DNA from: Acidobacteriaceae bacterium
GTDB lineage: Bacteria; Acidobacteriota; Terriglobia; Terriglobales; Acidobacteriaceae
NCBI GenBank assembly: GCA_003131585.1
Contig: PKVW01000021.1
Location: 20,576-55,351, forward strand
Direction of reading: 5' to 3'
Length of the DNA: 34,776 bases
Part shown: in pieces, positions 24,618 to 32,148 of the stretch
Layout: every line of letters starts with the position of its first letter
How positions within the stretch are numbered: position 1 is the stretch's first letter
Position numbers and translations under genes: made by a program
The notes under the pieces: model-generated
Databases searched by the model: none
The model's input: the letters and a program-made list of their open reading frames with translations, nothing else
Told to the model about the DNA's origin: nothing

Positions 24618-25601
24618 ATGATGGCTGCATACCCGCGCATCGCGATGGATCGAACCGTGCTCGATCAAACCGTGATCGATCAAAGAGCAAATGACCGAGG
24701 AACGTCCCCAGCTGCGTGGCTGATTGCGCTGCTGGCGCTCATGATTGCGCTCTCGGCGCTGGCCGGCGGGCAAACCGGGAAGTATCCGCAAACCATCGTC
24801 TTCATGACCGATTTCGGCGTAGTGGACGATTCGGTGGCCATCTGCCGGGGCGTGATGTATTCGATCATGCCGGAGGTGCGGATCGTCGACCTGACCCATC
24901 AGGTGACGCCGTTTTCCATTCTCGATGGCGCGCGTTTTCTGTATGGCGCGACCCCTTACTATCCCGCGGACACGGTTTTCGTGGTCGTGGTCGATCCGGG
25001 CGTGGGTAGCACGCGCAAAGCGATCGTCGCCAAGTCGAAGCGCGGACAGTATTTCGTGCTGCCGGATAACGGACTGCTCACGCTGGTGGAGCAGCGCGAT
25101 GGCATCGAGGGCGTGCGCGAGATCGGCAATACGGATTGGATGATTGGCACCAAGATGTCGTCGACGTTCCACGGGCGCGACATTTTTTCTCCCGTGGGAG
25201 CGCACGTCGCGCGCGGCGAGGATTGGACCAAGGTCGGTCCGGAGATGCCAGTCTCGTCTCTCGTGCGTTTGGAATTAAAGGCTGCGCGGATCGACGCTCG
25301 CGGCGTAAGCGCCGAGGTAATTGCGATCGACGGTCCCTTCGGCAATCTGGTGACGAACCTGGACGCCGAGGATTTTCTGAAGCTTGGCTACCAGCGCGGG
25401 CAGGAAGTTCCGGTGAAGGTCGGCGGCAAAGAGATGAAGATCAAGTTCGTGCGGACCTTCAGCGATGTGGCGTTGGGCCAGCCTTTGCTCTATATCGACT
25501 CGCGCGGACATCTCGGCCTGGCGGTGAACCAGGGAAGTTTTTCCGCGGCGTACGGCGTGAAGCCGCCGGTGGAATTGTTTATTCCGCGGGCGGGGAATTA
25601 A
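24618..25601 (+). CDS. SAM hydroxide adenosyltransferase (DUF62/SAM hydrolase family), exported
   Basis: A 327-residue member of the chlorinase/fluorinase fold family. The hydroxide-using members split S-adenosylmethionine into adenosine and L-methionine. The core begins at FMTDFGVVDDSVA and shows the Asp-Arg-His set of the hydroxide enzymes: VVDPGVGSTRK (Asp126, Arg133) and STFHGRDIF (His185), plus LPDNGLLT. The first 50 residues are extra: a polar segment encoded by 15-base repeats, then a hydrophobic helix (AAWLIALLALMIALSALAGG) that looks like a signal peptide or anchor, so the enzyme probably acts outside the cytoplasm. GGAGAA precedes the start at 24618 (or 24621). The TonB receptor follows after 40 bases, probably in one transcript. 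Confidence 0.88.
   Translation: MMAAYPRIAMDRTVLDQTVIDQRANDRGTSPAAWLIALLALMIALSALAGGQTGKYPQTIVFMTDFGVVDDSVAICRGVMYSIMPEVRIVDLTHQVTPFSILDGARFLYGATPYYPADTVFVVVVDPGVGSTRKAIVAKSKRGQYFVLPDNGLLTLVEQRDGIEGVREIGNTDWMIGTKMSSTFHGRDIFSPVGAHVARGEDWTKVGPEMPVSSLVRLELKAARIDARGVSAEVIAIDGPFGNLVTNLDAEDFLKLGYQRGQEVPVKVGGKEMKIKFVRTFSDVALGQPLLYIDSRGHLGLAVNQGSFSAAYGVKPPVELFIPRAGN
24648..24692 (+). repeat. In-frame 15-base repeat at the SAM hydrolase N-terminus
   Basis: GATCGAACCGTGCTC, GATCAAACCGTGATC and a third diverged GATCAAAGAGCAAAT unit follow each other, encoding DRTVL-DQTVI-DQRAN. The repeat lies before the hydrophobic helix and outside the conserved enzyme core. Confidence 0.7.
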
Positions 25602-25641
25602 GCATGGCCGTTCGGGCAGGTAACCCGGGAGGGCGAAACCT

Positions 25642-28600
25642 ATGAGCGCGTCTTCGTTTGGAAGCAATACGTCTTCAGTTTTGACTTCATCTCCGACAGC
25701 ATACTCGAATGCGACCCAGAGGCCGGGATGCCAGAGGCTGGGATGCCAGAGAATGCTCCGCGGCGCAATCGTGGCAGCCCTATTCCTGCTGCCATGCCTG
25801 CTGGCGGCGCAAAGCTACCGCGGCTCGATTCGCGGCAAAGTGGATGACGCGAGCGGTAGTCTGGTGGTTGGCGCTAAGGTCACCGCCAAGAACGTTGCGA
25901 CCGGCCAGACGCGCGATACCACGACTGGTCCCGATGGCGTATATGTTTTGCCCGAATTGCCCGCGAGCGAATACGAATTGACGGTTACCGCGCAAGGATT
26001 CAATCCCTGGGTCGTTCGAGTCGTGGTCAATGTCGGCGCCGATACTACTGCTGACGTTCGTGTCCAAATTGGCGAGCGTCAACAAGTCCTCGTAACCGCC
26101 GAGACTCCAATCGTCGATTCGACCCGTGACGTGCTCAGCGAAGTTGTCGACCAGCGGCTGGTCGAGGAACTGCCGCTGAATGGCCGCGATTTCGGAAAGC
26201 TAGTGGCGTTGTCCCCGGGAACCACGGTCGATCCTTCAGGCGTGGCCGGAAGCCAGGGAGGGTTCGGTCAATTCAATATCAATGGAAATCGCGATCGCTC
26301 CAACAACTACACGCTCGACGGCACCGACGACAACGACCCTTTCTTCAACAATTCCGCGCTCAACCAGACCGGGATCGGAGGCGCGCCGGCCTCTCTGCTG
26401 CCGATCGACGCGATTCAGGAGTTCAATCTGGAGTCGCAGTTCGGCGCCGAATACGGACGCAACAGCGGTTCAGTCGTGAACATCGTCACCAAGTCGGGAA
26501 CGAATCGCTTCCACGGCTCAGGCTTCGGGTTTCTGCGCAACAGCGCTTTGGACGCCCGCAATTACTTCAATACGGAAGCGCACAAGTCGGAATTCCAGAA
26601 CAGCAATTTTGGCGCCGCGCTGGGCGGTCCTGTCGTGAAGGACAAGACGTTCTTCTTTGCGGCTTACGAGGGAGAGCGGGAGCGAGTCGGCTCCGACTTC
26701 CTGCTTCTGGTTCCAACCACGCAGGAGATTGCTCAGGCCCGCGCCACCGCTTTGCTGTACCAGCCCGTGATCAATCCCGGCCTGGATGCTCTCCTGGCTT
26801 TCTACCCGCAGAGCACCACCGGCCAGGTTGCCGATTCGGTGCGCGATACCAACAGCGGAGATAACTTCATCGCGAAGCTGGATCATAACTTCACCAACAC
26901 GGAATTGCTGACTGGCCGGTATGCCTTCGGACAGAACTATCAGGTGTTTCCGCTCGGTTCGCCGGGGGGCTACGGCACGGGTTCGCGTTTGCCGCAATTC
27001 GCGCAGACTTCGCCGACGCGCGTTCAGGTCGTCTCCCTGAGTTTGCTCTCGAGTCTGAGCACAAGCGAGATCAATGAGGTCCGCTTCGGCTACAGCCGCT
27101 ACCGGACCTCATTCAGTTCGTTGAATGCCAATTTTGATCCCAACACGATCGGGCTGAACTTCGGTACGGGAAAACTCGGGTTGCCCGAGTTCGACTTCTC
27201 CGGCATTGAAAATCTGGGCGCCATCGGCTTCAGCGTCCCGCGCGGACGCACCAGCGGCACCTATCAGATTCTCGACAACTTTACCCTGCTGAAAGGCAAG
27301 CACACCTTCAAGTTCGGTGGCGAATTCCGCCGCGCCGCAATCGACAATTTCAACGACAACCTGGAGCGGGGAATCTTCCAGTTCACCGCCGGGGCATGCC
27401 TCACTCAGGCTCCTGTCTCCATTCCCTGCGGACAGACCGGGTACGATCCCGTCGTGGATTCGCTCGCTGACTTCTACACCGGGGGTGCGCCGAACTCCTG
27501 TTGCAGCTCCGTCTCCGTCGACCAGGGAAATACCCGCCGTACGACTTACAACAACGGTTTCAGCTTCTTCGGCCAGGACGACTACCGGGTCGCCAGCAAT
27601 CTGACGCTCAATTTTGGTTTGCGCTGGGAATACTTTGGGCCGATGAGCGAAGCTCACAACCTGCTTTCGAACCTTGGACAGGACGGAAACCTGGCCATGG
27701 TGGGCACGGACGGGCTCAACGGCCTTTATAAGCGCGACCTGCACGACTTCAGCCCGCGCGTGGGACTGGCTTGGAACGCTTTGAAGAATACGGTAATCCG
27801 CGCCGGCTACGGCCTCTACTATGACTACGTCCCGCAGGACTTGTTGATCGCAAACTTCACCACTTCGGCGGGAGTGGCCACCAATCCGATCGGTCCGCAG
27901 GCCGTACTGCCCCTGAGCTTCGATGCCACTGCGTTCAACGGCACCAACCCGACACCGAATGCGCCCATCCTGAACGGAGTGGCCAGCAGCCCGTACTCCA
28001 TCTTCGTCACGCCGCGAAGCTTCCCCTCGCCCTACACCCAGAACTGGAACTTCAACGTGCAGCAGAAGTTCGCCGAGAACGCATCCTTTGAAATGCGCTA
28101 TGTGGGCAGCAAAGGCACCAAACTGGTGCGCCTTACCGATCTCAATGAACCCGACGCGAATGACGTTCGTCCCAATCCCAACTACAGCGCGATCGATGAG
28201 CTGACGCCTTCGAGTTCGTCCGTCTACCACGCGCTAAACGGGATTGCTCGATTCCAGAACGCGCACCGCTTCTCGGGACTTGCGGGTTACGTCTGGTCGA
28301 AGTCGATCGACGATGCTTCCGACGGAATCGATTTCGTTCCCGGAGCAGCCTTCCCGCAGGATCCCGGCAACCTGGCGGCCGAGCGCGGACCGTCCACGTT
28401 CGACACACGCCAGCGTTTCACCGCCGCGGTGAATTATGCTTTGCCGTCGTTTCACGGCAACAAGCGGCTGGGCTCCGGCTGGCAGTTGAATGCGATCGTC
28501 AGCATTCAGAGTGGCCGCCCAATTCCCATCGTCAATTCGAGCGATACCAGCGGCCGGTTCTATTTCAACCAGCGGCCGAACGTGGTGCCGGGGGTAGATC

Positions 28601-28998
28601 CCATCCTGCCCAACTGGAGTCCGGCGACGGGATATCTGAATCCGCTGGCCTTCAGCCAACCGGCATTCGGAACGTTTGGGGACCTGGGACGAAACTCAAT
28701 TTATGGGCCCGGATACCGCGATTGGGATCTGTCGGTGACGAAAGAGACGCAGTTGACCGAGAAGCTTGCCCTGCAATTGCGCGGGGAAGTGTTCAACGTG
28801 CTCAATCATCCCAACTTCGCTTTGCCGAATCACAACATTACTCCGGGATACGATGCGAGCGGGAACGTGCAGTGCAATCCAGCCCTGCAATGCTACGACG
28901 GGGTGATCACGCAGACTCCCGACGTCGCCCAAACCAACCCCGGCCTCGGCGGCGGCGGCCCACGGGTGTTTCAGTTGGGAGCGAAGTTGGTATTTTGA
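25642..28998 (+). CDS. TonB-dependent receptor, Oar-like, with carboxypeptidase-regulatory-like domain
   Basis: This 1118-residue outer-membrane protein opens with a polar 37-residue stretch and a signal helix (MLRGAIVAALFLLPCLLAAQ, from residue 38). A beta-sandwich regulatory-like domain follows (SIRGKVDDASGSLVVGAKVTA to about residue 140), then a plug with LVEELPLNGRDFGKLVALSPG and INGNRDRSNNYTLDGTDDND, and a long beta-barrel with IVTKSGTNRFHGSGFGFLRN and the terminal strand GPRVFQLGAKLVF ending in Phe. This is the Oar/cellulose-type layout that is abundant in acidobacteria. The substrate is unknown. The start at 25642 has GGGAGGG eight bases upstream; a Met at 25753 is an alternative. Gene order places it directly after the SAM hydrolase, 40 bases apart. 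Confidence 0.93.
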   Translation: MSASSFGSNTSSVLTSSPTAYSNATQRPGCQRLGCQRMLRGAIVAALFLLPCLLAAQSYRGSIRGKVDDASGSLVVGAKVTAKNVATGQTRDTTTGPDGVYVLPELPASEYELTVTAQGFNPWVVRVVVNVGADTTADVRVQIGERQQVLVTAETPIVDSTRDVLSEVVDQRLVEELPLNGRDFGKLVALSPGTTVDPSGVAGSQGGFGQFNINGNRDRSNNYTLDGTDDNDPFFNNSALNQTGIGGAPASLLPIDAIQEFNLESQFGAEYGRNSGSVVNIVTKSGTNRFHGSGFGFLRNSALDARNYFNTEAHKSEFQNSNFGAALGGPVVKDKTFFFAAYEGERERVGSDFLLLVPTTQEIAQARATALLYQPVINPGLDALLAFYPQSTTGQVADSVRDTNSGDNFIAKLDHNFTNTELLTGRYAFGQNYQVFPLGSPGGYGTGSRLPQFAQTSPTRVQVVSLSLLSSLSTSEINEVRFGYSRYRTSFSSLNANFDPNTIGLNFGTGKLGLPEFDFSGIENLGAIGFSVPRGRTSGTYQILDNFTLLKGKHTFKFGGEFRRAAIDNFNDNLERGIFQFTAGACLTQAPVSIPCGQTGYDPVVDSLADFYTGGAPNSCCSSVSVDQGNTRRTTYNNGFSFFGQDDYRVASNLTLNFGLRWEYFGPMSEAHNLLSNLGQDGNLAMVGTDGLNGLYKRDLHDFSPRVGLAWNALKNTVIRAGYGLYYDYVPQDLLIANFTTSAGVATNPIGPQAVLPLSFDATAFNGTNPTPNAPILNGVASSPYSIFVTPRSFPSPYTQNWNFNVQQKFAENASFEMRYVGSKGTKLVRLTDLNEPDANDVRPNPNYSAIDELTPSSSSVYHALNGIARFQNAHRFSGLAGYVWSKSIDDASDGIDFVPGAAFPQDPGNLAAERGPSTFDTRQRFTAAVNYALPSFHGNKRLGSGWQLNAIVSIQSGRPIPIVNSSDTSGRFYFNQRPNVVPGVDPILPNWSPATGYLNPLAFSQPAFGTFGDLGRNSIYGPGYRDWDLSVTKETQLTEKLALQLRGEVFNVLNHPNFALPNHNITPGYDASGNVQCNPALQCYDGVITQTPDVAQTNPGLGGGGPRVFQLGAKLVF
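25716..25755 (+). repeat. In-frame 15-base repeat near the TonB receptor N-terminus
   Basis: CCAGAGGCCGGGATG and CCAGAGGCTGGGATG are consecutive 15-base units followed by a partial third (CCAGAGAATG). They encode part of the polar leader just before the signal helix. Confidence 0.7.
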
Positions 28999-29056
28999 GG
29001 GAAACGGTGCAGACTCGGTGTCGCGCGGAGCGCCCCGCCCGCGTTAACCATTGCGT

Positions 29057-29896
29057 CTAGCTGCCTGCGTCGTTCTGCATGCGCGGCAGCACGGCGCGCA
29101 GCAGGGCCTCGAAGCTGGTCTTGACGCGCTCGCCAGTTTCCATGACTTCCTGGTGCGAGAGCGGCTGATCGACGATCCCGGCCGCCATGTTGGTGACGCA
29201 CGAGATGGCGAGCACTTTGATTCCCATGTGACGCGCGGCGATCACCTCGAAGGCCGTCGACATTCCGACCAGGTCCGCGCCAATGGTTCGCAGGTAGGCG
29301 ATCTCGGCGGGCGTCTCGTAACTGGGCCCGAGCAGGGCCGCGTAGACGCCTTCGTGGAGCGTCATTCCCAGCTTGCCCGCTTCTTCTCGCGCCAGCTTGC
29401 GATATGGTCTCGCATAGGCTTGCGTCATGTCGGGAAAGCGCACGCCGAAGCGGTCGTCATTCGGCCCGGTCAGCGGATTGCTTCCCTGCAGATTGATGTG
29501 GTCGCGGATCAGCACCAGCGCGCCCTGCTGGTAATTTAGATTAATTCCGCCCGCCGCATTGGTCAGGACGACCGCGCGAATTCCCATGCGGCCGAACACG
29601 CGCATGGGGAAAGCGACTTCCTGCGCCGAGTATCCTTCATAGAGGTGCACGCGACCCTGCATCACGGCCACGGGAACGTCGCCCGCCTTGCCGATGACCA
29701 TCTGTCCGGCGTGGCCGATTGCGGTGGATCGCGGGAAAGCGGGAATCTCGGCGTAGGACATTCGAGCCGCCTCGCTCAACGAATCGGCGAACCCGCCCAG
29801 CCCCGATCCCAACACCAAACCGATCTCTGGACGCAGGGGCGTCCGCCGCAGCACAGACTGCGCAGCCGTTTCCGCACGCGTGAATTGATCGTCCAT
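29057..29896 (-). CDS. punA: Purine nucleoside phosphorylase (trimeric, family 2)
   Basis: This 279-residue cytoplasmic enzyme phosphorolyses inosine/guanosine to the base and ribose-1-phosphate. The start at 29896 (MDDQFTRAE) is chosen because the open frame upstream is repeat and foreign sequence. Motifs of the trimeric mammalian-like class are all present: phosphate site GLVLGSGLGGFAD (Ser31), QGRVHLYEGYS (His84), TNAAGGIN, GPSYETPAEI (Glu197), VGMSTAFEVIAARHMG and SCVTNMAAG (Asn236). Glu and Asn at those places fit 6-oxopurine preference (inosine, guanosine). Only a weak ribosome-binding site is seen. The gene lies downstream of the ERCC4 and adenosine deaminase genes on the same strand, 46 bases from the former. 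Confidence 0.94.
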   Translation of the reverse strand: MDDQFTRAETAAQSVLRRTPLRPEIGLVLGSGLGGFADSLSEAARMSYAEIPAFPRSTAIGHAGQMVIGKAGDVPVAVMQGRVHLYEGYSAQEVAFPMRVFGRMGIRAVVLTNAAGGINLNYQQGALVLIRDHINLQGSNPLTGPNDDRFGVRFPDMTQAYARPYRKLAREEAGKLGMTLHEGVYAALLGPSYETPAEIAYLRTIGADLVGMSTAFEVIAARHMGIKVLAISCVTNMAAGIVDQPLSHQEVMETGERVKTSFEALLRAVLPRMQNDAGS

Positions 29897-29950
29897 AAGA
29901 GCTACAAACCGAGGGTTACAGTTGAACGTTACAAGTCGAGAGTTACAAGT
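29897..29950. repeat. 14-base (2 x 7) repeats filling the PNP-ERCC4 gap
   Basis: Four GCTACA/GTTACA-headed units start at 29901, 29915, 29928 and 29942, with spacings of 14, 13 and 14. They make up nearly all of the 46-base gap and run a few bases into the end of the ERCC4 gene. Confidence 0.65.
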
Positions 29951-30545
29951 CATCATCGGCCAGAAACCGCCCGTGGCCATTGCGCTCCAGCCAATCATAT
30001 AAGAACGTCTGATAGAGGTAGGACGCCACAATTTCCTCTCCCAGTGCGTGCGTTTCCGTACAGACAAAGGGCATGCGCAACCCCGCCAACACCGCGATCA
30101 GAGACTGCGTAACCTGGTTGGGGCTGACCCGGCCGTAAGGATAGGCGCTCTTGATCTGGCTGAGAGGCGCGGTAATTACCAGCAGGCCGTGCGGAAGTTG
30201 GCTCATGCGCCGCAGACGTTTGACAAATACTGCCCGATTCCCGGTGAAGGAGTGAATCAGGTCGGCAAGGTCCTTGCGCTCGACCACACAGGAATCTTCC
30301 ATCCCGGCCACGCTGTAATCGCCGAGCGGCAAGGCGCGGGTTTCGATCCCGGCAAACCAGCCTTTGAACCGCCGAAAGGAAAGCGGAATCTGCTCGCGCG
30401 TGTCGACCACCACGACCGGCAGGGGCGTGCGAAGCTGAGACCCGCCGCGCTCGGCCAGCACCGGAATGATCGGATGAGAAACCGGCGCCGCGCGCATCTG
30501 CCATTCCAGGGGCGAGGAAATCAAAGTTCGCGTCTTGCGTGCCAT
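29943..30545 (-). CDS. ERCC4 (XPF/Mus81-type) nuclease-domain protein
   Basis: This 200-residue protein consists of little more than an ERCC4 nuclease domain. The catalytic signature is complete: VVVDTREQ (Asp48), LPLGDYSV (Asp76), VVERKDLADLIHSF (Glu89-Arg-Lys, Asp92, Asp95), the GDxnERKx3D pattern of XPF/Mus81 nucleases. No helicase and no helix-hairpin-helix tandem follow, unlike archaeal or eukaryotic XPF. In bacteria such small proteins are rare and resemble phage or stand-alone repair nucleases; the substrate (branched or flap DNA) is inferred from the family only. It lies between PNP and adenosine deaminase, 33 bases from the latter, so it could be co-transcribed with purine genes, though a functional link is not obvious. 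Confidence 0.85.
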   Translation of the reverse strand: MARKTRTLISSPLEWQMRAAPVSHPIIPVLAERGGSQLRTPLPVVVVDTREQIPLSFRRFKGWFAGIETRALPLGDYSVAGMEDSCVVERKDLADLIHSFTGNRAVFVKRLRRMSQLPHGLLVITAPLSQIKSAYPYGRVSPNQVTQSLIAVLAGLRMPFVCTETHALGEEIVASYLYQTFLYDWLERNGHGRFLADDDL

Positions 30546-30577
30546 TCGTCTCCCGGTCTCCGATTAAGACTGCCGCT

Positions 30578-32107
30578 CTAGTATTTCTTCTCGAACTTCG
30601 CGAACTCGCCCTCCAGCTTCCACTGCATCCGAGCGCGTTCATTAGCCGCGAGGAACTCTCCGCATCGCGACGAAAGCCGGTCCGCGCCCGCCGCACCGCC
30701 CGCGCAGGCCGGAGCAAGGCGAAATGCCAGTTTCGTCTGCGACCACAGACTTTTCCCCGGAAGGAAACTGTGCTCCAGACTTTGGCGCGCCATCCGCTTC
30801 AAATCGGAATATGACAAGTTGTAGCTCTGCACCGCGCGCAAATATTCATGCGTCATGTCCGAGCGCGACACGCCCTCGTCGTCGGTCGCCATCGCCACCG
30901 GAACGCCATACTTCATGTAAATCGGCAGTGGATGGTCATCCCCACTCACACCCAGGATCATGTCATTCGAGGTCAGCGCGATTTCCACCAGCACATTGCG
31001 TTCCGCCATTTCATGCAACAAGCCGATCGGATCCTTTTCGTTCATCACGGAAACCCCGTGGCCGATGCGCTCCGCATGTCCGCGCTCCACCGACGCGCGA
31101 ATATGAAACCCTAAATCCTCCGGGGGCACAAGCCCCATGGCGAGTTCGCCGGCGTGCAGCGTGATGTGCGCCTTGGGATAAACTCCGTGAAGATAATCGA
31201 GCATGGCCATGTGCTCATTGAAGTCATGGAGGGGAACGTACCAGTCCTCGGGCATCACCAGATTCAGCCCGACAAATCGCGGATCGGACGACGCCAGCTC
31301 GAAGCCCAGCAGAATCTGCGCGAACACGATTTCATGCGGCAATCCGCGCAGCACCTGATAAAGATAACGCACGGTCACGTCGCATCCGGGAGCGGCGTCT
31401 GCCGTTCCGCACTTGAGAATCTCTTTGGCGCGGGCATCGTCGGCAGCGAGTCTTTTGCCGGTCTCCGTGGCCACGTCTTTCATGCCGGCGCTCAGCAGCG
31501 CGTCGCGCATCTTGGCGAAATCCTGATGCCATTCGACTTTTGCCGCCAGTTGCGCCGCTGCGCCGCCATCGGCGGTGTGCATGAACTCCACGTACTGCAG
31601 ATGATCCATGCCCGCGCGATTCGCAGCCGCGGCAATTGCCTCGGCCACATGAGTGTGCGAGGCCAGCCCGAATTTGTCGAACGAGCCGAAGAAATGGTCG
31701 TGACCGGATTCGTCGCCCGGCTTCCAGTTGCGCATCGACCAGGCGTCAATCATCTGGTTGTAAAGCACGTGATCGCCATAGCTGCAACGGGCCGCGGGTT
31801 TGGCCGTATAGTTCTCGCAGGAGTCGCAGGGCGGGGCCAGCAGCCGCGAAGACGTTCGATCCACGCACAGGCCGCCGGAGGCCGCGAAATCCACCAGATC
31901 TTCGGCGTAGATCGCGCCGTCCAGATGATTGTGCAGATCTCCCCCCTTGGGCAGGTCGTGCGCAAAAGCCAGCAGCAACGGCGGCTGCTTGCGAATGGAC
32001 TCCATATACCGGGCCGTGCGCTGCTCGGGACTCTGGGCCGCGGCCAGCGCGGTCAGCAGCACAACCAGCAAACAACGGCGCATCACCCCACGCATGGTTG
32101 GTCGCAC
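30578..32107 (-). CDS. Secreted adenosine deaminase (ADA/ADGF-like)
   Basis: This 509-residue protein is an exported member of the adenosine deaminase family, which converts adenosine to inosine and ammonia. The start is taken as the GTG at 32107, seven bases after GGGAGG; a TTG at 32113 is too close to that site. Its signal peptide is MRRCLLVVLLTALAAAQS. Zinc and catalytic motifs are all visible: GGDLHNHLDGAIY (His-x-His), ITLHAGE, ERIGHGVSV, ALTSNDMI (for CPxSN) and MATDDEGVS (Asp-Asp). Long insertions between the HxH region and the rest, including Cys-rich CDSCENY, resemble the extracellular ADGF type. With PNP downstream it can feed inosine into the salvage route after uptake. It probably heads the minus-strand group ADA, ERCC4, PNP. 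Confidence 0.9.
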   Translation of the reverse strand: MRPTMRGVMRRCLLVVLLTALAAAQSPEQRTARYMESIRKQPPLLLAFAHDLPKGGDLHNHLDGAIYAEDLVDFAASGGLCVDRTSSRLLAPPCDSCENYTAKPAARCSYGDHVLYNQMIDAWSMRNWKPGDESGHDHFFGSFDKFGLASHTHVAEAIAAAANRAGMDHLQYVEFMHTADGGAAAQLAAKVEWHQDFAKMRDALLSAGMKDVATETGKRLAADDARAKEILKCGTADAAPGCDVTVRYLYQVLRGLPHEIVFAQILLGFELASSDPRFVGLNLVMPEDWYVPLHDFNEHMAMLDYLHGVYPKAHITLHAGELAMGLVPPEDLGFHIRASVERGHAERIGHGVSVMNEKDPIGLLHEMAERNVLVEIALTSNDMILGVSGDDHPLPIYMKYGVPVAMATDDEGVSRSDMTHEYLRAVQSYNLSYSDLKRMARQSLEHSFLPGKSLWSQTKLAFRLAPACAGGAAGADRLSSRCGEFLAANERARMQWKLEGEFAKFEKKY

Positions 32108-32148
32108 GATCAACCCTCCCAGATCATTTCTCCAAGGTCAGGAGAGAA

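Follow-up and report, generated by a model that had tools for sequence, protein, structure and literature searches.

The locus studied here raises the question of whether a predicted exported DUF62 enzyme, a TonB-type receptor, a purine nucleoside phosphorylase (PNP) and a secreted adenosine deaminase (ADA) together form a system that feeds on S-adenosylmethionine (SAM). An earlier note on this DNA had proposed such a SAM-to-purine locus; the predicted export of the DUF62 and ADA proteins and the pairing of DUF62 with the receptor held up in our analysis, and the gene-order support for the ADA-PNP arm proved unspecific. The window (the whole stretch of 34,776 nucleotides that was analyzed) is part of contig C4 of a 3.9-Mb genome that is 96% complete and that is most closely related, among those with names, to Candidatus Sulfotelmatobacter and Acidobacteriaceae metagenome-assembled genomes (MAGs). 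Profile searches confirmed all of the gene positions given earlier (Table 1), as well as the placement of the two halves, DUF62-receptor and PNP-ERCC4-ADA, on opposite strands, where they are convergent. The receptor starts 40 bases past the DUF62 stop, GGAG precedes the DUF62 ATG, and the probable starts of PNP and ADA are ATG codons near 29896 and 32095, respectively. Scans for promoters (2 found versus 2.2 expected) and terminators (10 versus 8.1) were at chance level.

Table 1. Features of the DUF62-receptor pair and of the facing purine genes, with positions in the window
Feature	Positions	Strand	Basis
Exported DUF62 / SAM hydroxide adenosyltransferase (SAM hydrolase-like), 327 aa, predicted	24618-25601	+	PF01887, PF20257 above cut-off
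DUF62 leader with hydrophobic segment, residues 1-49, end ~S-A-L-A	24618-24764	+	Hydropathy 2.86; putative cleavage site
Span of triad codons Asp126, Arg133, His185 in DUF62	24993-25172	+	Conservation, PH0463 spacing
TonB-type outer-membrane receptor, CarboxypepD_reg + OMP_b-brl_4 barrel	25642-28998	+	Pfam profiles, pair conservation, barrel model
PNP, inosine/guanosine type, without leader	ORF 29057-30067, part 29057-29896	-	TIGR01700; solved PNPs; candidate member of the system
ERCC4-domain protein, likely a passenger, lying between PNP and ADA	29943-30545	-	PF02732; missing from several genus loci
Exported adenosine deaminase (predicted), ADA2/ADGF-like build	30578-32113	-	PF00962, conserved residues, fold matches; candidate member of the system

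The DUF62 protein matched both PF01887 (SAM_HAT_N, 173.8 bits, cut-off 26.3) and PF20257 (SAM_HAT_C, 79.1 bits, cut-off 25.5), and its closest solved chains were 2zbu, SalL and PH0463. A His-Arg-Asp triad is described for DUF62 hydrolases (PMC10491745). When 61 proteins of the exported clade were compared, Asp126, Arg133 and His185 were each kept in 97% or more, and their PH0463 counterparts (Asp68, Arg75 and His127) have the same spacing when counted along the alignment, so that the protein resembles PH0463 and the Salinispora enzyme StDUF62 in having both domains and the triad. On the basis of its family and triad, we infer that this protein would hydrolyze SAM. It also belongs to the same fold family as SalL and the fluorinases, and has an S-R-G-x-L motif in common with SalL. 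However, the triad positions are Tyr, Thr and Tyr in the SalL chlorinase by alignment, and the fluorinase model gave 138 bits versus a cut-off of 400; a fluorinase or chlorinase identity was therefore rejected.

The S-R-G motif lies near the C terminus of the exported clade, with Ser295 and Arg296 each present in at least 97% of its members. At the same site SalL has S-R-G, 2zbu and 2cw5 have S-A-G, PH0463 has S-H-D, 2f4n has S-E-G, and the leaderless paralogue described below has S-M-G. Two NCBIfam (R)-SAM hydrolase models, NF058624 (197.5 bits versus a cut-off of 350) and NF053629 (162.1 bits versus 470), did not reach their cut-offs. Given the S-R-G motif, the substrate or epimer preference of the enzyme may differ from that of (R)-SAM hydrolases. 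Overall, the exported DUF62 departs from known SAM hydroxide adenosyltransferases and (R,S)-SAM hydrolases in its leader or lipobox, its paired receptor, its S-R-G motif and its scores below the NCBIfam equivalog cut-offs.

DUF62 matches at an E value of 1e-48 or better were found in 89 of the 399 genomes of the class; 78 of these contained a match of 53-100% identity and 11 contained matches of 42% or less only, with a clean gap between the two. We drew the boundary of the exported clade at this gap, which places the clade in 78 of 399 genomes. Leaders were scored with a plain 14-residue hydropathy window at a threshold of 1.8 that was fixed after earlier hydropathy values were known (the lowest was 1.87). 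Among 114 non-redundant clade loci, 112 were testable because they were not cut at a contig start, and 111 of these had a hydrophobic leader ahead of the domain; the remaining member (L224) scored 1.6 and has a lipobox-like end. Leaderless DUF62 controls (n = 11, of which 8 were long enough to score) reached at most 1.45. The export helix described for the window protein is thus common to the clade, and the protein is predicted to be exported. A lipobox was present by pattern in 17 clade members, mostly Acidiferrum-like. Because the leaders vary in sequence and type (cleaved or lipoprotein) and the domain stays alike, export itself appears to have been selected.

The genome that contains the window encodes a second DUF62 protein on another contig (G000:C35, L083), with 37% identity and without a leader. 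A leaderless second DUF62 is also present in most genomes of the genus. The exported form occurs in 22 of 25 genus genomes; it is absent in G008, G019 and G021, and in G016 it is seen as a contig-end piece.

The receptor was recognized by PF25183 (630.5 bits) and CarboxypepD_reg (68.8 bits), both above cut-off, and the Plug profile PF07715 gave 21.3 bits with a cut-off of 23.9. Its structure model has a mean pLDDT of 62.7, falling below 50 in the plug region, and contains a barrel, presumably of the 22-strand type found in TonB receptors. Foldseek matches of this model were generic TonB receptors (PqqU/YddB, FusA, siderophore receptors and BtuB), and a sequence search of the receptor against solved structures returned 0 matches. 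With a weak model and generic matches, reading the cargo of the receptor from its fold was rejected. The domain make-up and barrel are those of OMP_b-brl_4/CarboxypepD_reg TonB-dependent receptors; what sets this protein apart from such receptors in general is that it is tied to one exported enzyme.

The earlier note had suggested checking whether the DUF62-TonB pair stays adjacent across acidobacterial genomes, and the pair proved to be conserved. When close receptor orthologues were defined genome-wide by an E value of 1e-250 or better (the best two candidates per genome being scored), they occurred in 16 of the 399 genomes, all 16 of which are among the 78 with an exported DUF62 (Fisher p 1.2e-12, phylogeny ignored). 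In 15 of these 16 genomes the receptor lies directly downstream of DUF62 on the same strand; in the other (G377) it is on a different contig and DUF62 ends up 194 bases from a contig end. These orthologues span families f1, f5 and f7. In a set of DUF62-centered loci that is biased for pairing, both genes were present in 39 loci, 33 of them non-redundant, and they shared a strand in 33 of 33. The DUF62 stop and the aligned receptor start were separated by 93-318 bases, except in L199 (781 bases, including unknown ones), and the DUF62 and receptor distances were correlated (r 0.75), a value reached in 0 of 2000 permutations. Open-frame clustering, with antisense frames set aside, identified no other gene family next to DUF62 in all three families.

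Receptor presence varies among the loci. It was present in 23 of 80 named loci, in 6 of 21 loci of the genus, where the window is a minority arrangement, and, outside the genus, in 5 of 18 f1 loci and 6 of 21 f5/f7 loci (several contigs being short). The receptor was never found without an exported DUF62 in this sample; at the threshold used, 62 of the 78 genomes with an exported DUF62 had no close receptor orthologue, indicating that the enzyme works without it. Where DUF62 identity is below 66%, the window's genes on both sides of DUF62 (upstream and purine) are lost in 37 of 38 loci, and 8 of these 37 still have the receptor. Because the receptor is kept where the other window neighbors are lost, the link is specific. 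Judged by this gene-order evidence, the receptor is a true partner of the predicted exported DUF62, and the two form a unit conserved across families.

On the facing strand, PNP exceeded the cut-off of TIGR01700 (333.5 versus 293.35 bits); as it has no leader, it would carry out a cytoplasmic step. ADA was above the cut-off of PF00962 (88.1 bits), and it was well below those of the adenosine deaminase equivalog TIGR01430 (79.9 versus 216.55 bits) and the ADGF/ADA2 model TIGR01431 (30.5 versus 315 bits), the latter being a resemblance by fold alone. Among 43 sequences, H55, H57, H314, E317, D405 and D406 are invariant and H346 is kept in at least 90%; we take the HxH, H, E, H and D residues to be the zinc and catalytic residues. 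The ADA model (pLDDT 91.1) had Helix AMP deaminase, an ADGF chimera and human ADA2 among its top ten Foldseek matches, and fold comparison gave a Z score of 34 over ~334 residues for adenosine deaminases and 33.1 over 408 for ADA2, which count as tied because rows within 1 were treated as equal. ADA therefore resembles the secreted ADA2/ADGF deaminases in its leader, extended deaminase domain and first Foldseek matches, but differs from them in its low TIGR01431 score. Its substrate could be adenosine or AMP. By visual inspection rather than by count, a hydrophobic leader is seen in most of the ADA orthologues whose start is complete, so the description of this deaminase as secreted agrees with predicted export across orthologues. 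Cysteines C77, C229, C238 and C464 are also invariant in the 43 sequences (alignment A3), and they may form disulfides in the periplasm. The ERCC4 gene varies among loci of the genus, some of which have it and some of which do not.

In the reading of the earlier note, DUF62, the receptor, ADA and PNP are one pathway from SAM to purine. The chemistry chains, and both DUF62 and ADA are predicted to be exported. The adjacency of the two halves is also not peculiar to this genome, as 20 contigs of the genus were fetched and 16 of them have PNP and ADA facing DUF62, in addition to the window (L067 and L070 end too early, and L072 and L075 lack PNP and ADA within 2.1 and 3.9 kb, respectively). Outside the genus, 39 of 73 genomes were fetched; PNP and ADA were found at 5 of 18 f1 loci and at 0 of 21 f5/f7 loci, several of these contigs being short. 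As a control we used the upstream side of DUF62, which encodes a PPOX, a homoserine dehydrogenase and a cysteine-desulfurase-like protein. Across 66 non-redundant loci with long flanks, both sides were kept in 22, the purine side alone in 2, the upstream side alone in 1 and neither in 41. Because the purine genes fare no better than these unrelated ones, their link to DUF62 is what gene-order inertia would be expected to give, and the use of DUF62-ADA-PNP order as proof of function was rejected. Furthermore, G019 (L084) keeps ADA-ERCC4-PNP and has lost the exported DUF62. The functional tie of ADA-PNP to DUF62 was thus not borne out: a pathway of all four genes makes chemical sense but draws no specific support from gene order, and we consider it doubtful as a single system, with the ADA-PNP arm plausibly a helper and not an established part.

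Purine-related genes accompany the exported DUF62 in a few other lineages. In G219 (f7), a lipobox-type DUF62 heads a same-strand run of a PF00860 permease, AllB (allantoinase; TIGR03178, 552.5 bits, cut-off 357.85), an XdhA-like protein and an XdhB-UraD fusion, with a divergent amino-acid permease next door. Another genome of this genus (G260) has an amino-acid permease, DUF62 and a PF00860 permease, and G381 (f1) has two amino-acid-permease-like genes (judged by eye), DUF62 and a PF00860 permease; in all three genomes the PF00860 permease is ~0.75-1 kb from DUF62. At L204 (f1), XdhA, AllB, a deaminase, DUF62 and PNP lie within 8 kb. These permease, allantoinase and Xdh neighbors are suggestive of a purine context. 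Across the 78 genomes with an exported DUF62, a PF00860 permease is found in 65 and is within ~1 kb of DUF62 in 3 of them, and an allantoinase is found in 43 and is near DUF62 in 1. Based on these counts, a regular purine transporter or catabolic operon beside the exported DUF62 was mostly rejected. Searches of the window's genome gave no match for a PF00860 permease or an allantoinase, and a CNT nucleoside transporter was found in this genome and in the rest of the 8 genomes of the genus that were searched for one (8 of 8).

We propose, tentatively, that DUF62 and the receptor may well act together to scavenge SAM, or a close adenosyl-sulfonium, from outside the cell, and that its cleavage products would be taken up; scavenging of SAM is the most likely use of this unit. 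The receptor would carry scarce, charged SAM across the outer membrane on TonB energy, and the enzyme, placed in the periplasm (lipid-anchored in relatives), would cleave it by attack of water at C5' to give adenosine and methionine. The cell would then take up the methionine together with the adenosine, or with inosine if the secreted deaminase has acted first, and in the cytoplasm PNP would split inosine to hypoxanthine and ribose-1-phosphate. Gene identity, export signals, the hydrolase triad and the receptor partnership are the observed basis of this proposal, from which we infer SAM as the substrate, the cargo of the receptor and the uptake of the products. It is possible, at a lower level of confidence, that this is a dedicated SAM-eating system in which a SAM-recognizing TonB receptor and an (S,S)-specific exported hydrolase would supply purine, ribose, sulfur and nitrogen; the (S,S) specificity is suggested by the SalL-like S-R-G motif. 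Against the proposal we count the instability and small size of SAM, which may not need a TonB receptor, the many genomes that have the enzyme without the receptor, the unspecific retention of the purine arm, the low frequency of permease and allantoinase neighbors, and the derivation of G219 and G260 from one genus.

Among the matches listed in the open-licence PMC literature, none described a DUF62 protein that is exported, a TonB receptor specific for SAM, or a locus of this kind, so that the exported DUF62 and its receptor are a conserved unit not previously described in those matches. What DUF62 SAM hydrolases do in the cell is disputed, and PMC12120602 argues that their real function may be something other than hydrolysis of (R,S)-SAM. 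A clade that acts outside the cytoplasm, as predicted here, could not waste the cell's own SAM, and a matched receptor offers a concrete, testable purpose. If SAM scavenging is correct, one receptor among the great number of TonB receptors in acidobacteria would gain a substrate class, and SAM would prove to be a nutrient that soil organisms share; the conserved pair suggests that soil acidobacteria may feed on SAM released by other cells.

An alternative in which the pair is real and its cargo is not SAM appears unlikely to us. Here the receptor would import a different compound that is adenosylated or resembles SAM, such as a nucleoside antibiotic or an adenosyl metabolite secreted by cells, and the periplasmic DUF62 enzyme would destroy or strip it, for detoxification or special-compound use. 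The one-sided dependence of the receptor on the enzyme is consistent with this, as is an S-R-G motif like that of SalL and absent from the four aligned DUF62 hydrolase homologues, since substrate handling may differ; however, the hydrolase triad is kept, and the permease, allantoinase and Xdh neighbors point to feeding on products. We find it improbable that the exported DUF62 performs housekeeping removal of stray (R,S)-SAM, or of SAM leaked into the periplasm, with the receptor as an inherited accident of gene order. Hydrolysis of (R,S)-SAM is known for the Salinispora DUF62 (PMC12120602, PMC10491745), and the enzyme occurs in more genomes than the receptor does, but the receptor stays directly behind the enzyme in three families even where other window neighbors are gone, a second, leaderless DUF62 serves the cytoplasm, and the score on the (R)-SAM hydrolase model NF058624 is far under its cut-off. 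Export of the DUF62 protein by the receptor from the periplasm to the surface or medium, by analogy with what is reported for the Myxococcus protease PopC and Oar, a TonB-dependent transporter (PMC6434023), is very improbable, because most enzyme-bearing genomes lack the receptor and lipobox forms would be membrane-anchored, even though the receptor is found only with the enzyme and an exported DUF62 is also present in a myxobacterium (L240).

Several minor observations concern the surroundings and spread of the exported DUF62. Four members of the f7 genus g43 (L156, L169, L170 and L171) have a MacB-like ABC permease (cluster c34, identity judged by eye) behind DUF62 instead of the receptor; this gene and a thiolase-like downstream gene (c12) recur inside family f7 only. 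An XdhB-like FAD subunit fused to an OHCU decarboxylase (UraD, 170.4 bits, cut-off 139.4) is encoded at L157:790-2175. Exported DUF62 proteins of 59-62% identity, with leaders, were also found in the myxobacterium Hyalangium versicolor (L240, 9 kb-11 kb), a MAG labelled Phenylobacterium deserti and two Blastocatellia MAGs (the other loci being L239, L214 and L251), where horizontal transfer or a mislabelled MAG is a possible source.
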